A stretch of 48,616 bases of DNA from a virus. A model generated the notes under the pieces. It saw only the letters and a program-made list of their open reading frames with translations, was not told the DNA's origin and made no database searches. Below, piece by piece: positions 12,000 through 34,399 of this stretch. The stretch spans positions 1 through 48,616 of the IMG/VR virus record IMGVR_UViG_3300015206_000002. One strand, written 5' to 3'. How positions within the stretch are numbered: position 1 is the stretch's first letter; each line of letters starts with the position of its first letter. The translations under genes were made by a program, and so were the position numbers.

Positions 12000-12665
12000 A
12001 TGATTCCCCCAAACGTGGTTTCTATCGCGTCCGGCGGCCATCGTGAACGCGTCATCCGCCGTCGCGACGAGCTTGCCCTCGCCCATCTGTCGCTGGTCGA
12101 CGGCCTTGCGCGCAAAGTTCACCGCAGCCTTCCGCCGTCATTCGATTTGTGCGACCTGATTGGGGAGGGGTTGCTCGCGCTGTGCGCCGCCGCCCTCCGC
12201 TACCGGCCGGACGCCCACGGCGGAGCGCCGTTTTCGGCGTTTGCGCGGAAGGGCATCCGCGGCGCGATGTTGGAAAGTGTGAGGCGAAAGCGATATGTCG
12301 AAAACACGCGTCCGGGCCTCGAGGTACTGGCCGAAACGAAAACCGGCCGGGAGCGGGAATTCGGATCCAGGTTCGATTTTTTCGACGAGACCGCCGCTCT
12401 CGATCGCGCCGCTACCGCCGCCGTCGCCGAGGAAGCGCTGGACGCCGCGAGGTTGAGGCGTCGCATAGCCGACGCCATTTCGTGGCTGCCAGCCGCCCAG
12501 CGTGCGCTGCTCGGGCACTACTACGGACCGATGGAACCGACTATCGGGATCGTTGCCAGGTCCCTCGGCCTTTCGCGCGCCGCGGCACTTGAACTGCACG
12601 ACGAGGCGATCGCCGCCGTGAGAGCGCGATTAACCGGCGGCGCCGTGGAGCGGATCGCGGCGTAG
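12000..12665 (+). CDS. Phage-encoded sigma-70 family RNA polymerase sigma factor
   Basis: 221 residues. Region 2 spans about 23-97: LALAHLSLVDGLARKVHRSL, then DLIGEGLLALCAAALRYRP (core-binding 2.2) and FSAFARKGIRGAMLESVRR (promoter melting and -10 recognition). Region 4 spans about 158-212: ISWLPAAQRALLGHYYGP then IGIVARSLGLSRAAALELHD, a helix-turn-helix for -35 recognition. The spacing without region 1.1 and the IRGAMLESVRR form resemble FliA/WhiG-type sigmas. It would redirect host polymerase to phage promoters. No SD precedes ATG 12000; inverted GTGATC/GATCAC sites lie just upstream. Confidence 0.85.
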   Translation: MIPPNVVSIASGGHRERVIRRRDELALAHLSLVDGLARKVHRSLPPSFDLCDLIGEGLLALCAAALRYRPDAHGGAPFSAFARKGIRGAMLESVRRKRYVENTRPGLEVLAETKTGREREFGSRFDFFDETAALDRAATAAVAEEALDAARLRRRIADAISWLPAAQRALLGHYYGPMEPTIGIVARSLGLSRAAALELHDEAIAAVRARLTGGAVERIAA

Positions 12666-18914: not shown

Positions 18915-18922
18915 TAATTATA
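18915..18922. repeat. Left target-site duplication of the IS
   Basis: TAATTATA, identical to 20620-20627. Eight bases is the expected duplication size for IS1595-family elements. Confidence 0.85.
18917..18922 (-). promoter_or_regulatory. higB: Orphaned -10 box of the higBA operon
   Basis: Minus strand TATAAT, 6 nt before the toxin GTG. It is part of the left target duplication. The IS end supplies no -35 at the right distance; a TTGTCA/TATAAT pair inside the IS end has a 14-nt spacer, too short to be strong. Confidence 0.6.
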
Positions 18923-18945
18923 GGGAATTATATACATAAATACCC

Positions 18946-18974
18946 TTGACAAGAGCGGGGTAACAAAGTATCAT
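18946..18974 (+). promoter_or_regulatory. Internal promoter of the IS
   Basis: TTGACA at 18946-18951, 17-nt spacer, TATCAT at 18969-18974. It would drive the passenger and transposase genes with a leader of about 80 nt. Confidence 0.7.
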
Positions 18975-19059
18975 TGAGGTATAGCAAGCCAGCCGATTGG
19001 CGGAATCGGTAGACGACCAAACAGCCCTCCCGATGCGGGGGCAGGAAAAGAGACTCGAT

Positions 19060-19545
19060 ATGTCAACCACCACCGAAAACACGATCATTGACCAATTAAC
19101 CGCTGCCGTCGCAGCCAGGAAGGACAGCTTGGTCCAGCTTCGCGGGCGAATCGAAAAACTCATCGCGCCACTGCCAGTAGGCGTTGTACTGGCGGACGAT
19201 GCAGGCGAGATCGGTAAAATCCGACGCGTCTGCACTGGCGCAAGCCAGTGGGGCAACCAAACTTGGAACGTGACGATCAAAGGTAAAGGTCTGATCGCTG
19301 ACAGGAAATTGGTCAGCGAAACTTGCGAACGATCCTACTGGGATGGCAACAACATGCACCACCATTCGACTGAGCCATTTTGCCTCTATACCGGATCTGA
19401 AATGGATATGTATGATAGCGAAGAACTGAATTGGCTGTCTGGCCGTGACACGCGAGCACTCGCCCTCCGGTTGCCCCGCGCGATTGAGCGCTACATCGAA
19501 GAATGCAAAGCGGAAGAAGTCGCCAACAAAACTACGGCGGTCTAA
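19060..19545 (+). CDS. IS passenger protein (161 aa), unknown
   Basis: ATG 19060 follows GGAAAAGAG; an upstream GTG frame extension (18997) is less likely. Residues 10-35 are helical (IIDQLTAAVAARKDSLVQLR), then a beta-rich domain (IGKIRRVCTGASQWGNQTWN) with a His/Cys-containing loop (NNMHHHSTEPFCLYTGSEMD). Co-oriented and 2 nt before the transposase ATG. Some IS1595 elements carry passenger genes; the function of this one is not known to me. Confidence 0.65.
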   Translation: MSTTTENTIIDQLTAAVAARKDSLVQLRGRIEKLIAPLPVGVVLADDAGEIGKIRRVCTGASQWGNQTWNVTIKGKGLIADRKLVSETCERSYWDGNNMHHHSTEPFCLYTGSEMDMYDSEELNWLSGRDTRALALRLPRAIERYIEECKAEEVANKTTAV

Positions 19546-19547
19546 AG

Positions 19548-20474
19548 ATGAGCAAATCCACCATCAGCACGTTTCAACTTTTCGAGCGGTTTCCCGATCA
19601 GGAAGCAGCCCGAATCTACCTGGAGGGCCGACTCTGGCCCTCCGGCCCCACCTGTCCGCAGTGCAAGTCTGGCGACCGCGTGACAACGCGCCCCAAGGGT
19701 TCTTATCGTTGCGGTGCGTGCAATAAATTCACGTTCACCGTGCGTGACGGCACGATCTTCGGAGCGTCAAAAATTCCCCTCCACAAATGGGTTTACGCGA
19801 TGTACTTGTTGGTCACCGCACGCAAAGGTATCTCCTCCATGCAACTCGCGAAGGAAATCGGCATCACTCAAAAGTCCGCATGGTTCATGCTTCAGCGCCT
19901 CCGAGAGGCGTGCTCCACGCCCGACAACATCGATAAACTGCGGGGCATCATCGAGATCGACGAAACTTTCGTAGGCGGGAAAGAGCGCAACAAACACGAG
20001 CATAAGAAACTGAAGGCAGGGCGCGGCAGTGTCGGTAAGACTCCGGTGCTCGGAATGCGCGAACGCGGTGGCCGCACCCGCGCGATGGTCGTCACATCAA
20101 CCGATGCCGGAACGATCCAAAACGAAATCCATGGAGCGGTAGAGGCTGGATCGCAACTCTACACCGATGAGTTCGGAGCGTATTCGGACCTTGACGGTCT
20201 GTTTTTCCATCACGCCACATGCAACCACAGCGCGAAGGAATGGGTCAACGGCGCGGCGCACACGAACAGCATCGAGTCCGTTTGGGCGGTCCTGAAGCGC
20301 GGGTTGCACGGCGTCTACCACCACGCCAGCGCAAAGCACCTACACCGCTACGTCGATGAGTTCGCCTGGCGGCTGAACGAGGGCAACGTAATCATCCACA
20401 CCCTGCGCCGTCTGGATTCGTTTGTCGATGCGGTAGTCGGGAAGCGCATCACGTACAAAGAGGTGATCGCATGA
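19548..20474 (+). CDS. IS1595-family ISXO2-like transposase
   Basis: 308 residues. N-terminal zinc ribbon: CPQC at 36-39 and CGAC at 55-58, followed by FTVRDGTIFGASKIPLHKWV, a hallmark of the family. HTH-like segment (GISSMQLAKEIGITQKSAWF). Catalytic triad: Asp138 in IIEIDETFVGG, Asp207 in LYTDEFGAYS, and Glu243 in NSIESVWAVLKRG. All are present, so the enzyme should be active. It inserts the element by cut-and-paste with 8-bp duplications. Confidence 0.92.
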   Translation: MSKSTISTFQLFERFPDQEAARIYLEGRLWPSGPTCPQCKSGDRVTTRPKGSYRCGACNKFTFTVRDGTIFGASKIPLHKWVYAMYLLVTARKGISSMQLAKEIGITQKSAWFMLQRLREACSTPDNIDKLRGIIEIDETFVGGKERNKHEHKKLKAGRGSVGKTPVLGMRERGGRTRAMVVTSTDAGTIQNEIHGAVEAGSQLYTDEFGAYSDLDGLFFHHATCNHSAKEWVNGAAHTNSIESVWAVLKRGLHGVYHHASAKHLHRYVDEFAWRLNEGNVIIHTLRRLDSFVDAVVGKRITYKEVIA

Positions 20475-20605
20475 GCGACACCTCGACGCCGCGTGAACTG
20501 GATGTAATCGCTGATATCGTACTGGCTTACAAGCCAAAACCTAAGACGAAGGCTCAACAAAAACGCGCGCGAAAGGCTAAGAAAAATGCAAAGTCGGGGC
20601 AGTAA
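20471..20605 (+). CDS. Small basic IS-associated protein (44 aa)
   Basis: ATGA overlap with the transposase. LDVIADIVLAYKPKPKTKAQ then a Lys/Arg/Ala tail. Its stop lies inside the right terminal repeat. Similar small basic ORFs accompany some IS1595 transposases; a DNA-binding helper role is inferred. Confidence 0.6.
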   Translation: MSDTSTPRELDVIADIVLAYKPKPKTKAQQKRARKAKKNAKSGQ

Positions 20606-20619
20606 TGTATATAATTCCC

Positions 20620-20627
20620 TAATTATA
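20620..20627. repeat. Right target-site duplication of the IS
   Basis: TAATTATA, matching 18915-18922. Confidence 0.85.
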
Positions 20628-27940: not shown

Positions 27941-27978
27941 CCCGCAGCGAATTTAAATCAGGGGCATTGTCCCCGCTA

Positions 27979-28005
27979 CCGCCGCGAGGCGGAAGGAGCA
28001 GCACA
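27979..28005 (+). promoter_or_regulatory. GNRA hairpin leader, copy 1 (protease)
   Basis: CCGCC (27979-27983), loop GCGA, GGCGG (27988-27992), then AAGGAG SD at 27993-27998 and TTG start at 28006. Preceded by GGGG-CATTGT-CCCC. Two further copies at 29468 and 33030 share stem position, tetraloop class and SD register. Confidence 0.8.
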
Positions 28006-29358
28006 TTGAAGAACACATTTCTACAGCTCTCGAAGGTCGAAGAGCAGGCGGACGGCACGTGCATCGTACGCGGTACCGCGACCGCGGAACAGCCCGATCT
28101 GGTCAACGAGATCTTCGACTGGGCCACAGGTAAACCGCAGGTCGAAAAATGGCGCGACGCGGCACTCAGGCGCAGCGCGGGCAAGAGCCTCGGAAACATC
28201 CGGGCCATGCACGGCAAGGTAGCGGCGGGCATCGCCCGATCGATCTCTTTCGACGACGGCGCCAAAACCATCGAACTCGAAAGCCATGTGATCGATCTCG
28301 CGGAAGCCGCCAAGTGCATCACGGGCGTTTACACCGGCTATTCGATCGGCGGCGATTACCTCGGCGATCGCTGGCCCGATCCGGTTATCAAGGGCGCCAT
28401 GCGTTATACACCTTTGCTCGCCGAGATCAGCCTGGTCGACAGCCCCTGCCTCGAAACCGCCACATTCTCGTATGTGAAAGCGGATGGGGCCACCTCGCTG
28501 CGCAAGTTCGTACAGCCGATTCACGTCGCGGGCAAGACCGCGCTCTCCGCCGCCGACGTGACCCGCCTCGCGAAAGCCGTCACGGATCTCGCCACGGCTA
28601 AGGCCGGGCGCGCCGCTTCGGCCGAAGCGCTCGTCAAGCAACTCGCGCTGCGCAAGAGCATGTGGGACGTCGGAACGCTGGCCAGCATCATGGCCCAGAT
28701 CGCCTACATGGAAGAGTCGCTCACCTATGAGGCCGACTTCGAAGGCGACGCCTCGCCCATCCCCGCTCAGCTGCGCACCGCGCTGATCGCCCTCAAGCAA
28801 ATCTTCATCGACCTGGCCACGGAAGAAGTGACCGAACTGGTCGGCGAAACCCCGGAAGCGGCGGCCAAGGCCGCAGCGACCCAACTCAATAAGGAGGTGG
28901 CCTCTATGGTCACAGAACTGAAAAAAGCGATTGCAATGGCCGGAGCTTCCACCGACCCCGAAATGAAAAAAATGGAAACGCACCTGAAAGCGATCGGCGC
29001 CCACGTCGACAAGATCGCGAAATGCCACGCCGATATGGCGGACAGCATCAGCGCGCTGCAGGGCACCGAAAAGCCGGAACCCACCGCAGACGAAAAGAAG
29101 GAAGCCGAAAAGGCCGCGGCCGCGGGCACGCTCAGCAAAGCCAATGACACGCGCTTTGCGTCGATCGAAACATCGATTGCCAAGACCAACGAAGTCCTCG
29201 GGCTGATCGCGCAGCGCCTCGTCCCGACCACCGTTTCCACGGTCGCCGTGGCGAAGACTGCCGATGTCGCGGGCGCCGCTGCGCCTGCTGCCATCACGGA
29301 CCCCACCGAAGCGATCAAGGCCGCGCACGCCGCGGGCATGACGCGCCGGCTCGCGTAA
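28006..29358 (+). CDS. Prohead protease fused to scaffold protein
   Basis: 450 residues from TTG 28006 (upstream TTG 27967 would read through the leader hairpin). Protease domain about 8-150: GTATAEQPDLVNEIFD, AMHGKVAAG with His69, GVYTGYSIGGDYLG with Ser113, and LLAEISLVDSPCL, the ISLVDxP signature of XkdF/U35-type prohead proteases. The remainder is long charged helix, as in scaffolds. A strong internal SD at 28891 allows separate production of the C-terminal scaffold from ATG 28906. The protease matures the head by cutting scaffold and possibly capsid. Confidence 0.8.
   Translation: MKNTFLQLSKVEEQADGTCIVRGTATAEQPDLVNEIFDWATGKPQVEKWRDAALRRSAGKSLGNIRAMHGKVAAGIARSISFDDGAKTIELESHVIDLAEAAKCITGVYTGYSIGGDYLGDRWPDPVIKGAMRYTPLLAEISLVDSPCLETATFSYVKADGATSLRKFVQPIHVAGKTALSAADVTRLAKAVTDLATAKAGRAASAEALVKQLALRKSMWDVGTLASIMAQIAYMEESLTYEADFEGDASPIPAQLRTALIALKQIFIDLATEEVTELVGETPEAAAKAAATQLNKEVASMVTELKKAIAMAGASTDPEMKKMETHLKAIGAHVDKIAKCHADMADSISALQGTEKPEPTADEKKEAEKAAAAGTLSKANDTRFASIETSIAKTNEVLGLIAQRLVPTTVSTVAVAKTADVAGAAAPAAITDPTEAIKAAHAAGMTRRLA
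28891..28897 (+). promoter_or_regulatory. Internal ribosome binding site for nested scaffold
   Basis: AAGGAGG, 8 nt before in-frame ATG 28906. It is as strong as the SD of the parent gene and lies exactly where the helical scaffold part begins. Confidence 0.7.
28906..29358 (+). CDS. Nested in-frame scaffold protein (150 aa)
   Basis: Same frame and stop as the protease gene, starting MVTELKKAIAMAGASTDPEM. Charged helix with a central HLKAIGAHVDKIAKCHADMA stretch and a C-terminal Ala/Thr part. The arrangement matches the lambda C/Nu3 logic, in which an internal start gives extra scaffold without protease. Expression from this site is inferred from the SD. Confidence 0.6.
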   Translation: MVTELKKAIAMAGASTDPEMKKMETHLKAIGAHVDKIAKCHADMADSISALQGTEKPEPTADEKKEAEKAAAAGTLSKANDTRFASIETSIAKTNEVLGLIAQRLVPTTVSTVAVAKTADVAGAAAPAAITDPTEAIKAAHAAGMTRRLA

Positions 29359-29434
29359 GCAAAAGAACCTTCGGGCGGCGACGGTCGTGGGCAGTTGCCC
29401 TTCAGAGATAGGCGCCGTAAACACTTCAACCCCC

Positions 29435-29453
29435 GGGAGGGGTCATCCCTCCC
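29435..29453 (+). promoter_or_regulatory. 7-bp hairpin before the capsid leader
   Basis: GGGAGGG-GTCAT-CCCTCCC, perfect. No T-run. It lies 15 nt upstream of leader copy 2 and may protect the 5' end of a processed capsid mRNA. Confidence 0.45.
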
Positions 29454-29467
29454 ACCAGACCCAACTA

Positions 29468-29493
29468 CCGCTGTGAAGCGGAAGGAGCAACAC
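29468..29493 (+). promoter_or_regulatory. GNRA hairpin leader, copy 2 (major capsid)
   Basis: CCGCT (29468-29472), loop GTGA, AGCGG (29477-29481), AAGGAG at 29482-29487, TTG start 29494. The stem's closing pair is T-A here and C-G in copies 1 and 3: a compensatory change. Confidence 0.8.
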
Positions 29494-30987
29494 TTGGACC
29501 CTGTAACTATCGATCAGACGCTGGAGCTGCTCAAGAGCGCCCAGACAAATCCGCTGCAGAAAGCGGGCATCACCACCGGTACCGGGCTCGTCGCATACGA
29601 TCTCGAACCCACTGCAAAGCTCCTGTACCCGGTCCTCACGCCGTTGCGCAACGAGATTCCGCGCGCATCGACCGTTCCGGGCGCCGGCCTCGCGCTCAAC
29701 TGGAAAGTCGTCACCGCGATTAACAACACCAATGTCTTCGCGGGCGTTTCAGAAGGCAACCGCGGTGGCGTGATCTCCATCGCCGAAGCCAACAAGATCG
29801 CGACCTATAAAGGTCTTGGCCTCGAAAACTCCGTCACGTTCGAAGCGGATTACGCCTCGCGGGGATTCGACGACGTGAAGGCTCTCGCCGTTCGCCAGGG
29901 TCTCGAATCCCTGATGATCGCCGAAGAGATCATGATCGTCAACGGCAACACCAGCCTGCAGCTCGGTACGACCAACACCCCAGTGGGCGTGGGTTCAACC
30001 ACCGGCGGACTGCTCGCGGCGACGACTTACTTCGTCTATGCCGTTGCCCTGACCTATGACGGTTACCAGCGCGCAGGCGTGGCGACCGGCGTTGTCACCG
30101 GCGTGGCCAAGATCAACGCCGATGCTTCCATCGACACGTTCGGCGGCGGCGCGGCAAAGGTCAGCGCCGTATCGAACACGGTAACCACCACGGGTTCGAC
30201 CGGCTCCATCGCGGTGAGCTGCACCGCGACTCCGGGCGCTTTTGGTTATGCCTGGTTCTGGGGCACCACGACCGGCGTTGCCAACGCAACCCTCGGCGCG
30301 GTCACTCTGACCAACACCTTCACCATCACCGCAACCGCGACCGGAACTCAGCTGGCCAATTATACGGTCACGCTGAACAGCGTCGTCTTCGCCCTCTCGG
30401 CCGACAATTCGACCAACGCGCTCGCCTTCGACGGCCTGATCACTCAGGCGATCGCCGGCGGCGGCTACGTTCGCTCGCTCGACGGCGCAACCCTGACCTC
30501 CGACGGTCTGGGCGGGATCGTCGAAATCGACGTCCTTCTGAAATACATGTGGGACAACTTCCGCATCGCGCCTGAAGTCATGCGCGTTGGCGGGCAGTGC
30601 GCCCGCGACATCACGAAGAAGATCCTCGCCGGCAACGTGAACCCGGCTTACCGCGTGAACGTCACGCAGAACGGCCTTGGCCAGCTCACCGGCGGCAACC
30701 TTGTCACCGATTACCTGAACAAGTTCGCGCTGGGCGGCGCAACCGTTCTGAAAATCGAACTGCATCCCTACATGCAGGACGGTTCCATCTTCTTCGACTG
30801 CAAGAAGAACCCGTACCCCAACTCCAACGTTGGACAGGTACGGCGCATCATCACCCGCCAGGAATACAACCAGACCGAATGGCCCCTCGTCTCGCGTAAA
30901 TACCAGTACGGCGTTTACGTGGATGAATGCCTGCAGGTTTACGTTCCGCAAAGCTTCGCGCTTCTGACCAATATCGCTGCAGGCTAA
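29494..30987 (+). CDS. Major capsid protein, HK97-type with Ig-like insertion
   Basis: 497 residues from TTG 29494. N-terminal helix and arm (PVTIDQTLELLKSAQTNPLQ), then PTAKLLYPVLTPLRNEIPRA and the E-loop/P-domain region up to about 160. Residues about 165-310 are a Thr/Val/Gly-rich beta domain (TTGGLLAATTYFVYAVALTY..., TFTITATATGTQLANYTVTL) inserted into the fold. The A-domain follows (GGIVEIDVLLKYMWDNFRIA, LKIELHPYMQDGSIFFDCKK). It is the most abundant virion protein, which fits the special leader. Confidence 0.85.
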   Translation: MDPVTIDQTLELLKSAQTNPLQKAGITTGTGLVAYDLEPTAKLLYPVLTPLRNEIPRASTVPGAGLALNWKVVTAINNTNVFAGVSEGNRGGVISIAEANKIATYKGLGLENSVTFEADYASRGFDDVKALAVRQGLESLMIAEEIMIVNGNTSLQLGTTNTPVGVGSTTGGLLAATTYFVYAVALTYDGYQRAGVATGVVTGVAKINADASIDTFGGGAAKVSAVSNTVTTTGSTGSIAVSCTATPGAFGYAWFWGTTTGVANATLGAVTLTNTFTITATATGTQLANYTVTLNSVVFALSADNSTNALAFDGLITQAIAGGGYVRSLDGATLTSDGLGGIVEIDVLLKYMWDNFRIAPEVMRVGGQCARDITKKILAGNVNPAYRVNVTQNGLGQLTGGNLVTDYLNKFALGGATVLKIELHPYMQDGSIFFDCKKNPYPNSNVGQVRRIITRQEYNQTEWPLVSRKYQYGVYVDECLQVYVPQSFALLTNIAAG

Positions 30988-31005
30988 ACCAGCCTGTTTG
31001 ATCCA

Positions 31006-31074
31006 GTGGCGGAGGCCACCAGCTCGGTGAAATGCCGCGATCCCGTGGGGAGACAGTGAAGCCGGGCAACCGGC
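31006..31074 (+). terminator. Two hairpins after the capsid gene
   Basis: GTGGC-GGAG-GCCAC at 31006-31019 and GCCGG-GCAA-CCGGC at 31061-31074, the second closed by a GNRA tetraloop. No T-run, so attenuation or 3'-end protection is more likely than full termination. Confidence 0.4.
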
Positions 31075-31120
31075 GCTCCCTCTCCCTGCAGGCACTTCTG
31101 CAATCCATTCCGCGCCGTTT

Positions 31121-31984
31121 ATGCCGATTCTTTCCACTCCGCTCGACCTGACTACGCTCGCGCTCGCGAAAACGTGGGCGACGATCACAGGCAACACTAC
31201 CGACGATCTGGTCCAGCAGCTCATCACTGCCGCCAGTCAGCAGATGATTGCGTACATGAGCCGGAATCCGTGCGTGGCGACCTATACAGAGGTGCGCGAC
31301 GGCAACGGCAACGATTCGCTCTCACTCTGGAACTGGCCCATCATTTCGGTGTCGGCGCTGACCATCGCGGATCAGCGCTTCAGCTGGAACGGCGATCCGG
31401 TCTGGCCGCTCAGCGGCAACCCCGAGACCATTTCCTCCTCGACCAACGCAATAACCCCCGGGTTCATTGTGGACTCCGGGCCCGCGTATACCGCGCCCGC
31501 GCGCATCACGCTCGTCGGCTACCGCTTCACGCGCGGCCGCAGCAACGTGACGATCAAATACCAGGCCGGGTATACGCAGACCTTTGGGGAGACGCAGACC
31601 ATCGCGGCCGGCACGGTCACCCTGAACAATGCTGCCACCTTTGTGGCGAATTTCGGCGTGTCTTACGCCAACGGAACCGCTTTCACGCTGGTGGCCACCG
31701 CACCGGCGGCCGGGCAGTACACGGTTTCGGCGAAGGGCGTTTACGGCTTCAACGCCGCCGACAATACGCAGGCGGTCACGGTCACCTACCAGTTCGGCCA
31801 GGTCCCTTATGACCTCGTGCAGGCCTGCAATGAGATCGTCGGGCAGGACCTGCGGCGACGTTCCCACATCGACGAAGACAGCGTCGTGGTGGCCGCGCAA
31901 AGCACGAATTACAGCCGTCTGGCTATCCCGCGCAAGACCCAGATGGTTCTCGACACCTATCGCCAGCGGATGGTGATGGCTTGA
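31121..31984 (+). CDS. Head-tail connector (gp6-like) with inserted beta domain
   Basis: 287 residues. N-terminal helical part (TTDDLVQQLITAASQQMIAY), then YTEVRDGNGNDSLSLWNWPI, and a C-terminal LVQACNEIVGQDLRRR, as in HK97 gp6-like adaptors. Residues about 165-230 form an inserted beta module (FVANFGVSYANGTAFTLVAT, APAAGQYTVSAKGVYGFNAA) that recurs in the major tail protein and tail-tip protein. It sits on the portal to form the connector. Confidence 0.7.
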   Translation: MPILSTPLDLTTLALAKTWATITGNTTDDLVQQLITAASQQMIAYMSRNPCVATYTEVRDGNGNDSLSLWNWPIISVSALTIADQRFSWNGDPVWPLSGNPETISSSTNAITPGFIVDSGPAYTAPARITLVGYRFTRGRSNVTIKYQAGYTQTFGETQTIAAGTVTLNNAATFVANFGVSYANGTAFTLVATAPAAGQYTVSAKGVYGFNAADNTQAVTVTYQFGQVPYDLVQACNEIVGQDLRRRSHIDEDSVVVAAQSTNYSRLAIPRKTQMVLDTYRQRMVMA

Positions 31985-32093
31985 TTAAACCTACAGCGGA
32001 GAGGTAGGCTCCAGGATTTCACTGGAAGTCGAAATACGCGCATCTCCCCGCCGCTGCCTTATTTTATCCATTCAGTCGTCCTCTGACACGATC
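31985..32093. other. Intergenic region with possible long stem
   Basis: CAGCGG near 31995 and CCGCTG near 32055 can pair imperfectly (with GAGAGG and TCTCCC next to them). No gene seen. Confidence 0.35.
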
Positions 32094-32546
32094 ATGATCC
32101 AGGCCACAATCGATTCCGCAGCCCTCACCACGCGCCTCGCGCAGTTCGGTCCGAAGATTCAGGCGAACGTCGAGCGCTCTCTCCGCCAGATCGTAATCGA
32201 AGGCCAGTCCGAAATTGTGCGCGACAAGCTGCACGGCGGCAATCCGCTGTTCTCGCGGTCCGGCAACCTCGCGCGCGCCGTCCAGCAGGACGTTGCCTCT
32301 GATGGCGATGCCATCGTGGGAACGATTGGCGTGGACCGCACCGCGCCCTACGGCTACGTCCACGAATACGGCGGCACATACGATGTCCGCGAGCATATCG
32401 CGACCAGCCGCCTTGGCAAGCAGTTCTCGGTTAAGGCGCACACAGTGACCTATCCGGAGCGCTCGTTCCTCCGCTCCTGGCTGACCGACAACCTCGTCGG
32501 GATCCTCGCGCAGGTGGAACGGGCAGCGCAGGAGGCGGTCGCGTAA
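32094..32546 (+). CDS. HK97 gp10-like neck/tail component
   Basis: 150 residues. LRQIVIEGQSEIVRDKLHGG then NPLFSRSGNLARAVQQDVA and YGYVHEYGGTYDVREHI, the R-TGxLxxS...YAxxVExG layout of HK97 gp10 proteins. It joins head and tail. Overlaps the next gene by one base. Confidence 0.7.
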   Translation: MIQATIDSAALTTRLAQFGPKIQANVERSLRQIVIEGQSEIVRDKLHGGNPLFSRSGNLARAVQQDVASDGDAIVGTIGVDRTAPYGYVHEYGGTYDVREHIATSRLGKQFSVKAHTVTYPERSFLRSWLTDNLVGILAQVERAAQEAVA

Positions 32547-32992
32547 TGGCCGTTCCGTCCCCGCTCGACTTCGAAGCGATCTTTGCCGCGTCCTTCGCGC
32601 TCTTCTCCAGCGTGACCGGCCTGAAGACCTTTTCGCGCCGGCTGGTCACCTGGGACAAGGTTTCGGCCGAAGACCAGCCCGCGCTGTTTCAGCGTGAACT
32701 GCGCTTCACCGCGATCCAGAACAACGTTGGCCTGACGGCTAAGTGGCACCTGTTCGGCGAAGTTGTTATCTACGCGAACGCCGGCAGCGATCCGGATATC
32801 ATCCCGTCGCAGGCGCTGAACGCGCTGATCAACCAGGTGCGCGCCATCTTCGAACCGCCGCCCAACGCGCGCCAGACCCTCGGCATTCCGAACGTCCTCG
32901 AGGCCGTCATCGTGGGCGACATCCTCATCGATGAGGGCGTGACCGACGGCCAATCCATCGCATTAATACCCTTTCGCATCACGGCGCATTAA
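32546..32992 (+). CDS. Tail terminator/completion protein
   Basis: 148 residues. FEAIFAASFALFSSVTGLKT, then QPALFQRELRFTAIQNNVGL and ANAGSDPDIIPSQALNALIN; a short alpha/beta protein between neck and major tail protein, as tail terminators usually are. Confidence 0.6.
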   Translation: MAVPSPLDFEAIFAASFALFSSVTGLKTFSRRLVTWDKVSAEDQPALFQRELRFTAIQNNVGLTAKWHLFGEVVIYANAGSDPDIIPSQALNALINQVRAIFEPPPNARQTLGIPNVLEAVIVGDILIDEGVTDGQSIALIPFRITAH

Positions 32993-33029
32993 AGCGCCCG
33001 CAGTCTTCATAAATCCAAACCAATTACTA

Positions 33030-33056
33030 CCGCCGTGAGGCGGAAGGAGCAACACC
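33030..33056 (+). promoter_or_regulatory. GNRA hairpin leader, copy 3 (major tail)
   Basis: CCGCC (33030-33034), loop GTGA, GGCGG (33039-33043), AAGGAG at 33044-33049, ATG at 33057. Preceded by a GGCGC...GCGCC stem near 32986. Confidence 0.8.
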
Positions 33057-33797
33057 ATGAGCGCAGCTTATACATTCGGATCCGGCGACATTTTCCTGAT
33101 TCCCTTCGGCGGAGCGGCCGCCCCGAACCCGACCCCGATGAAGGTCGGAACCCTCCAGGATGTCTCGATCGACATCAGCTTCACGATCAAAGAACTCTAC
33201 GGCAAGAACTCGTTTTCGGTCGCTAACCGGCGCGGTAAAGGCAAGATCGAGTGCAAAGCGAAGTTTGCCAATATTACCGCCAAGCTTCTGAACGACGCGA
33301 TGTTCGGGCAGACGATTGCCGCTACCCAGATCATTCCGGTGATCGATGAGCCCGGCACGCCCGTCACGCACGTTGTGACCGTTACGGGTTCGGCCACCTT
33401 CCTGACGGACCTCGGAGTGGTCGATGTGGTCACGGGCCAGTCCATGATCCTGGTGGCGTCCACACCGGCGGCCGGGCAGTATATGCAGGCATCCGGCGTT
33501 TACACGTTCACGTCCGGATTCGCGGATCTGGTGAAGATCAGCTACGAGAAGAGCTCGACCTCCGGGCAGGCGTTCACGATGCCGAACGTGCCCATGGGAG
33601 CCTCGCCGCTCTTCATGGTGGTCTTCAACGAAATCGATGCGCCCACCGGCAACCAGATGACGGTCACGCTGAATTCCTGCGTGGCATCGAAGCTGTCGCT
33701 GGCGTCGAAACAGGAAGACTTTATGATTCCCGAGTTCGATTTCACGGCATTCTCCGATGCCAGCGGGAACGTCTTCACCTGGGAATCGACCAACTAA
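33057..33797 (+). CDS. Major tail tube protein
   Basis: 246 residues. Starts with a beta sandwich (TFGSGDIFLIPFGGAAAPNP, VGTLQDVSIDISFTIKEL) and GKNSFSVANRRGKGKIECKA, typical of siphophage tube proteins. A central module (LVASTPAAGQYMQASGVYTF) is related to the module in the connector at 31121, even at DNA level (ACCGGCGGCCGGGCAGTA). End: EFDFTAFSDASGNVFTWEST. Confidence 0.75.
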   Translation: MSAAYTFGSGDIFLIPFGGAAAPNPTPMKVGTLQDVSIDISFTIKELYGKNSFSVANRRGKGKIECKAKFANITAKLLNDAMFGQTIAATQIIPVIDEPGTPVTHVVTVTGSATFLTDLGVVDVVTGQSMILVASTPAAGQYMQASGVYTFTSGFADLVKISYEKSSTSGQAFTMPNVPMGASPLFMVVFNEIDAPTGNQMTVTLNSCVASKLSLASKQEDFMIPEFDFTAFSDASGNVFTWESTN

Positions 33798-34132: not shown

Positions 34133-34399
34133 GTGTTCGGCCGGCTGATCACGTCGACCGGCTGGACATACGAGTACGTGCGCGATGAATTCGATCTGAC
34201 GGGCCTGCGCCGCATGTATCGGTACTGGTCGGAGCATCCCCCGGTGCACGAGCTCGTTGCCGGGTACATGGGGATCAGCGCGCCCAAGAAATCCAGAGCC
34301 AAAGCCAGCAGCAGCCTGCGCGACTTCGCGTCCGAGATGGGCGCGAGTTTCAACGGAATAAAGAAGACGCGCCCGAAAAAGCCACCAGATGCCGGATAA
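34133..34399 (+). CDS. Tail assembly chaperone, frameshifted domain (T-like)
   Basis: 88 residues if started at GTG 34133, but more likely expressed as an extension of the 33798 protein by the -1 slip. TGWTYEYVRDEFDLTGLRRM then YRYWSEHPPVHELVAGYMGI and a Lys-rich end (KKTRPKKPPD). The helical, basic C-terminus is typical of gpGT tails, which bind the tape measure. Confidence 0.65.
   Translation: MFGRLITSTGWTYEYVRDEFDLTGLRRMYRYWSEHPPVHELVAGYMGISAPKKSRAKASSSLRDFASEMGASFNGIKKTRPKKPPDAG

Follow-up and report, generated by a model that had tools for sequence, protein, structure and literature searches.

A GNRA-capped hairpin joined to the Shine-Dalgarno sequence precedes major head and tail protein genes in unrelated phages

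In this study, we analysed a stretch of viral DNA of 48,616 nucleotides (nt), IMG/VR record IMGVR_UViG_3300015206_000002 (hereafter the window), and a hairpin, element B, which recurs in it before three genes. B consists of the bases RCUA, a hairpin of 5 base pairs (bp) capped by a GNRA loop, the Shine-Dalgarno (SD) sequence AAGGAG without any spacer, an A/C-rich spacer of 5–8 nt and the start codon. In phages unrelated to one another, it is found almost exclusively upstream of genes for major head and tail proteins. We propose, with a probability of roughly 0.55, that B is a cis-acting leader, which would present the SD sequence and set strong initiation of the most abundant virion proteins, aided by a second hairpin further upstream, element A. 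Cis-acting leaders are already known as a kind; what appears to be new is an SD-tied element that unrelated phages carry at their major head and tail genes, frequently accompanied by a second hairpin.

An earlier note on this DNA had described three hairpin-SD units at positions 27979–27998, 29468–29487 and 33030–33049, with GNRA loops, a loop-closing pair changing from C-G to T-A and the SD sequence directly behind the stem, and all of these features are found in the sequence. The three 20-mers are exact copies of CCGCY-GNRA-RGCGG-AAGGAG, with loops GCGA, GTGA and GTGA, closing pairs C-G, T-A and C-G, and AAGGAG abutting the 5-bp stem in each; no fourth match with up to three mismatches exists in the whole 48.6 kb (chance expectation 0.27). 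The conserved unit starts four bases further upstream with RCUA, a feature that had not been described before, as had neither hairpin A nor a third hairpin in the leader of the major capsid protein (MCP) gene. The complete copies, all on the plus strand, are GCTA-CCGCC-GCGA-GGCGG-AAGGAG at 27975–27998 before the first gene (41.6 bits with covariance model R1, E 9e-11), ACTA-CCGCT-GTGA-AGCGG-AAGGAG at 29464–29487 before the MCP gene (40.7 bits) and ACTA-CCGCC-GTGA-GGCGG-AAGGAG at 33026–33049 before the putative major tail protein gene (42.9 bits). Start codons, set from the SD sequence and from homologue alignments starting at residue 1, are TTG 28006, TTG 29494 and ATG 33057, lying 7, 6 and 7 nt behind AAGGAG, in agreement with the two TTG starts claimed previously. 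The motif CARCAC, described as leading straight into each start codon, does so at the MCP gene and is followed by one extra base at the other two (A before TTG 28006, C before ATG 33057). All three genes carry AAGGAG, while most other structural genes of the window have no SD sequence.

Since the window copies are near-identical to one another over about 30 nt, chance or a recent duplication of one leader within the genome could be considered; however, unrelated phages carry B with stems that differ in sequence and change in a compensatory manner, which refutes both and leaves them a practically negligible probability. Among close relatives, contigs L004 and L005 carry B before both homologous genes, including GAGA- and GTGA-loop counterparts of the MCP copy, and L006 carries a homologous copy before the tail gene; GAGA and GCGA are among their loops, which C-G or T-A closes irrespective of the gene. 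B is absent from more distant relatives of the window MCP (41–51% identity) and from the gene starts examined in isolate phages with related capsids (Xanthomonas PBR31, Rhodoferax P26218, Curvibacter PCA1, Bradyrhizobium, Brevundimonas Polewnik and Manatee Spring phages).

A search of IMG/VR for further copies did find them, in unrelated phages and with covariation. The pattern ACCGCYGNRARGCGGAAGGA matched in 29 contigs, with nearly every site immediately 5′ of a start codon and nearly all preceded by CT, although CT lay outside the search pattern. With the relaxed pattern CTANNGCNGNRANGCNNAAGGAG, which leaves three stem pairs free, 82 distinct sites were obtained; all three free pairs were complementary in 60 of them, and a start codon followed 54 of these 60 sites as opposed to 7 of the remaining 22. 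Among the free pairs, pair 1 occurs in all four Watson-Crick types, and pairs 2 and 5 are either C-G or T-A. When the whole stem was left free and the flanks were fixed, 35 of 113 distinct sites among the matches listed were fully paired, 28 of them in loci already in the set, and in new loci among the matches listed 7 of 85 sites were fully paired vs 2.5 expected from shuffling. The stems ACGTC/GACGT look genuine among these and precede open reading frames (ORFs) of 382 and 409 residues with capsid-protein-like N-termini; four other newly paired stems (TTCAA..TTGAG) may be something different. In loci L228, L244, L269 and L298, a leader of a different type recurs, ACTA-TTCAA-GCGA-TTGAG-AAGGAG-ttgct-ATG or a close variant of it, upstream of small proteins that look unrelated. 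Finally, in a scan with unconstrained stem sequence, a stem of exactly 5 bp at SD offset 0 was observed in 62 of 78 matches; the reversed-sequence control gave 1 match.

The final set comprises 67 sites in 56 loci, and the proteins encoded downstream fall into 20 unrelated families (single linkage, E<1e-4); the common layout is RCUA, 5-bp stem, GNRA, AAGGAG. Loops are GTGA (33), GGGA (19), GCGA (7), GCAA (4), GAGA (2) and GTAA (2). Start codons are ATG at 56 sites, TTG at 9 and GTG at 2. The idea that the leader compensates for TTG starts was consequently dropped, as most copies precede ATG.

Compensatory changes were found at four of the five stem pairs: among 33 distinct rows, 22 cells are changed on both sides vs 5.5 in shuffles (0/500), where cells count sequences and not events, two of the patterns had prescribed the GC core of the stem, and a later filter retained only sites with four or more pairs. 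The 60 of 82 obtained with CTANNGCNGNRANGCNNAAGGAG are unaffected by that filter for the three unconstrained pairs. The structure of B itself is well supported, and with its conserved secondary structure, compensatory change and fixed place relative to start codons it belongs to the cis-acting RNA leaders. In native contexts the predicted pairing probability of the hairpin is 0.93, and linker and spacer are G-poor (0.18 and 0.05 vs 0.30 further upstream). The folding energy of the whole leader is ordinary (z about 0), so that the case rests on comparison and not on stability.

We surveyed 33 downstream proteins with mutual identity below 45%. Sixteen are major head proteins belonging to six PHROGs (phrog_10, 283, 1005, 29, 371 and phrog_13692 of the window), ten match major tail or tail sheath proteins (phrog_158, 1407 and 165), and the tail protein of the window with its L006 relative (phrog_8234) is probably the eleventh tail protein. 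The remainder comprises the family of the first window gene, one DNA-ejection match and four proteins of unknown function. In several phages (L084, L098, L102, L166), one copy precedes the MCP gene and another one the tail gene, some of these with pentaloops, e.g. CCGTC-GCGAT-GACGG. Copies in unrelated phages, covariation, the fixed geometry at the SD sequence and the placement at major head and tail genes together strongly support the shared cis-acting translational element suggested in the earlier note. An autoregulatory operator of the T4 gene 32/43 or MS2 type was rejected, given 20 unrelated downstream families and several PHROGs of head and tail proteins without relationship to each other. 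Across the 23 carrier contigs examined, with the window among them, no protein family is present throughout; these contigs are mostly partial, so that a small shared factor could be missed. It is for want of such a common gene that the previously suggested protein-binding site appears unlikely in the form of an operator for a shared phage protein. Carriers of the HK97 type have a common packaging cassette, which is not shared by P22-like, Mu-like and window phages. We additionally observed a family of short, secreted-looking proteins (MNFKKTSVLCFVLLALALVPANAQ...) recurring in 11 carrier contigs (G001-G022 set) of different phage types, which might point to a host group.

Upstream of the MCP copy of B, the window, L004 and L005 share ACGGTCGTG...AGATAGG within a helix of changing sequence, the second hairpin A. 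Nine IMG/VR contigs contain its literal core GACGGTCGTGAGATAGGC; four of them also carry B, and in all nine the flanks pair for 5–7 further bp with changing sequence, although pairing was not required by the search. The general form P1-ACN-GUC-GNRA-GAY-AGN-P1′ gave 44 matches vs 5 in reversed sequence, and 38 of the 67 B sites have an A at most 155 nt upstream, compared to a mean of 1.05 and a maximum of 5 for stretches of 160 nt drawn at random from these loci. P1 covaries strongly, although this is in part selected for; G.U pairs are present, and the loop is not always GNRA, with pentaloops elsewhere and an extended loop in the window. There, A spans 29375–29418 on the plus strand, with P1 GCGGCG/CGCCGT, internal loop ACG/AGG and GUC/GAU, and an extra GGGC/GCCC hairpin in place of the GNRA loop. 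RNAfold returns exactly this structure, the core structure is the same in L004 and L005, and the site is the top match of model R2 in the window, weak by itself and not significant (14.7 bits, E 0.28). Between A and B, a middle hairpin at 29435–29453 (plus strand, GGGAGGG-gtcat-CCCTCCC) has counterparts of different sequence at the same place in L004 and L005, a comparison of three sequences only. In locus L072, whose leader also holds a second A-like hairpin, a sub-threshold twister-P1 match (34 bits vs a gathering score of 67.2) lies at 908–993 on the minus strand, close to, not at, the A element at 835–852.

As inverted repeats upstream of late genes, A and B could in principle act as DNA, serving a phage transcription system either as palindromic operators or as late promoters, and the window encodes at 12000–12665 a protein matching Pfam PF04542 (sigma-70 region 2) and weakly phrog_351 (sigma factor), possibly a phage-encoded sigma factor. 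However, the fixed orientation, the fixed abutment to SD sequence and start codon, the asymmetric GNRA loop present in the sense strand only and the G.U pairs in A point to RNA and render action as DNA very improbable.

B is placed at the genes whose products are needed most, which suggests that initiation there is enhanced or finely set. The hairpin may keep the SD sequence free of upstream structure and could stack on or border the SD/anti-SD helix; together with A and the A/C-rich linkers it might constitute a standby or barrier region, biasing 30S subunits to this start. In the window, where other structural genes mostly have no SD sequence, B would then mark the genes needing most output. 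Structured elements of the 5′ untranslated region upstream of the ribosome-binding site can raise translation, two structures acting synergistically, in E. coli and in vitro (PMC11087576), and enhancement through standby sites and structural barriers in this region is cited there from Espah Borujeni 2014.

Several observations weigh against simple activation. A hairpin alone gave no enhancement in those experiments, and structures very near the start can inhibit (PMC11087576). For isolated B, RNAfold predicts a weak 2-bp foot, in which CU pairs with AG of AAGGAG around an A.A mismatch, and SD bases 2–3 are unpaired only 0.43 and 0.22 of the time; B could therefore repress or be conditional. 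In addition, RCUA, G-C at stem position 3, the GNRA loop and the internal loop of A are conserved beyond the needs of simple SD exposure, hinting at specific recognition. It is due to the predicted SD pairing and this excess conservation that we place translational activation no higher than stated at the outset and grant a bound factor a minority share.

Such a factor would be a host, or widely carried, RNA-binding or ribosomal protein for which A and B are sites, so that head and tail genes answer a common signal. Beyond mere pairing, unrelated phages indeed have RCUA, GNRA and the ACN/AGN internal loop of A in common, and two tandem GNRA hairpins lie upstream at 38 of 67 sites. The tip of A, GUC-GUGA-GAU, presumably resembles the tip of 16S ribosomal RNA (rRNA) helix 36 over just 10 nt, which is only a lead towards a possible ribosomal-protein site or rRNA mimic. 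In the carriers, however, no common gene and hence no evident common phage factor is seen, the loop of A is variable, and cellular genomes yielded no convincing CCGC-stem copies, which would be expected if host targets existed. Among cellular genomes of 85,000 species, the CCGC-stem pattern matched five times, never at a convincing phage leader; four matches were judged chance by context, and one in Flavobacteriaceae scores 36 bits. Model R1 found nothing in 398 Pseudomonadota genomes, which is weak evidence since that set contained no positive genome. Taken together, we regard recognition by such a protein as fairly unlikely.

Less probable still is a role of B as mRNA 5′-end stabiliser or processing site, with transcripts starting or being cut just upstream and the hairpin shielding major structural mRNAs from decay. 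A stable hairpin near the start and an unstructured upstream linker as potential cleavage site would be compatible with this, as would the high output of the genes concerned, but neither the zero spacing to AAGGAG nor the inclusion of the SD sequence in the conserved unit is needed for stability.

Within Rfam 15, the window gave, up to E 5, a single 24-bit sub-threshold match on the other strand and elsewhere than the elements; twelve carrier loci had no match at gathering score, and six A-carrying loci none at the elements up to E 5. The open-access literature searched held no report of element B, large-scale phage RNA catalogues lying outside that search. Going beyond translational activation as such, we tentatively suggest, at well below even odds, that A and B form a portable RNA module of phages, not recorded before and common to different head folds and tail types. 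In phages with mostly SD-less other genes, it would recruit the ribosome, directly or via a ribosomal or RNA-binding protein of the host, to the few virion genes with products of highest copy number, and would be a shared signal for high output that phages of a single uncultured host group have exchanged or convergently retained. One SD-tied structure that recurs at the major head and tail genes even where capsids are unrelated offers a handle on very high virion output from polycistronic late mRNA; B is furthermore a practical marker with which to locate major capsid and tail genes where contigs lack annotation, and a candidate natural part with which translation might be raised.

Regarding the three genes themselves, all on the plus strand, the previous assignments stand to different degrees. 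The MCP (29494–30987, phrog_13692, unannotated in PHROGs) is corroborated by tblastn matches to annotated major capsid proteins. The first gene (28006–29358; phrog_21715 of unknown function, no Pfam match) is a putative prohead protease or scaffold by position alone, and the putative major tail protein (33057–33797) is assigned from an unannotated PHROG (phrog_8234) and its position between a tail-completion gene and a long ORF at 34389. The intergenic stretches after the MCP gene (30988–31120) and after the next gene (31985–32093) appear rich in inverted repeats. Elsewhere, the window holds a complete insertion of the IS1595 family at 18915–20627, with a transposase at 19503–20474, near-perfect terminal inverted repeats (18921–18945 and 20597–20621) and, flanking it at either end, the 8-bp target duplication TAATTATA; the best plasmid matches of the transposase, at about 45% identity, are scattered and indicate no host.

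Among known systems, the lambdoid boxB, the N-peptide site which with boxA drives antitermination, has a 5-bp stem with a GNRA or GNRA-like pentaloop cap. B shares this stem, such loops and the occurrence in phage operons, but adjoins SD sequence and start codon, and no shared N-like gene was found in the carriers, whose contigs are mostly incomplete and in which boxA was not searched for. RiboJ is an engineered insulator with a small hairpin just 5′ of the ribosome-binding site, meant to keep the SD sequence accessible; the location is the same as that of B, while RiboJ is engineered, linked to a ribozyme and without a natural family. The translational operators of T4 gene 32 and gene 43 are likewise phage mRNA hairpins near ribosome-binding sites, bound by their own gene product and repressing (PMC3014915), whereas B is one element before unrelated gene products. 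Comparable in action would be enhancement by standby sites and structural barriers, including work with an RNA G-quadruplex (RG4) plus hairpin, in which structures upstream of the ribosome-binding site and unstructured linkers are also present and two structures acting together raise initiation (PMC11087576); those structures are arbitrary and placed about 40 nt from the SD sequence, whereas B is specific, conserved and abuts it.

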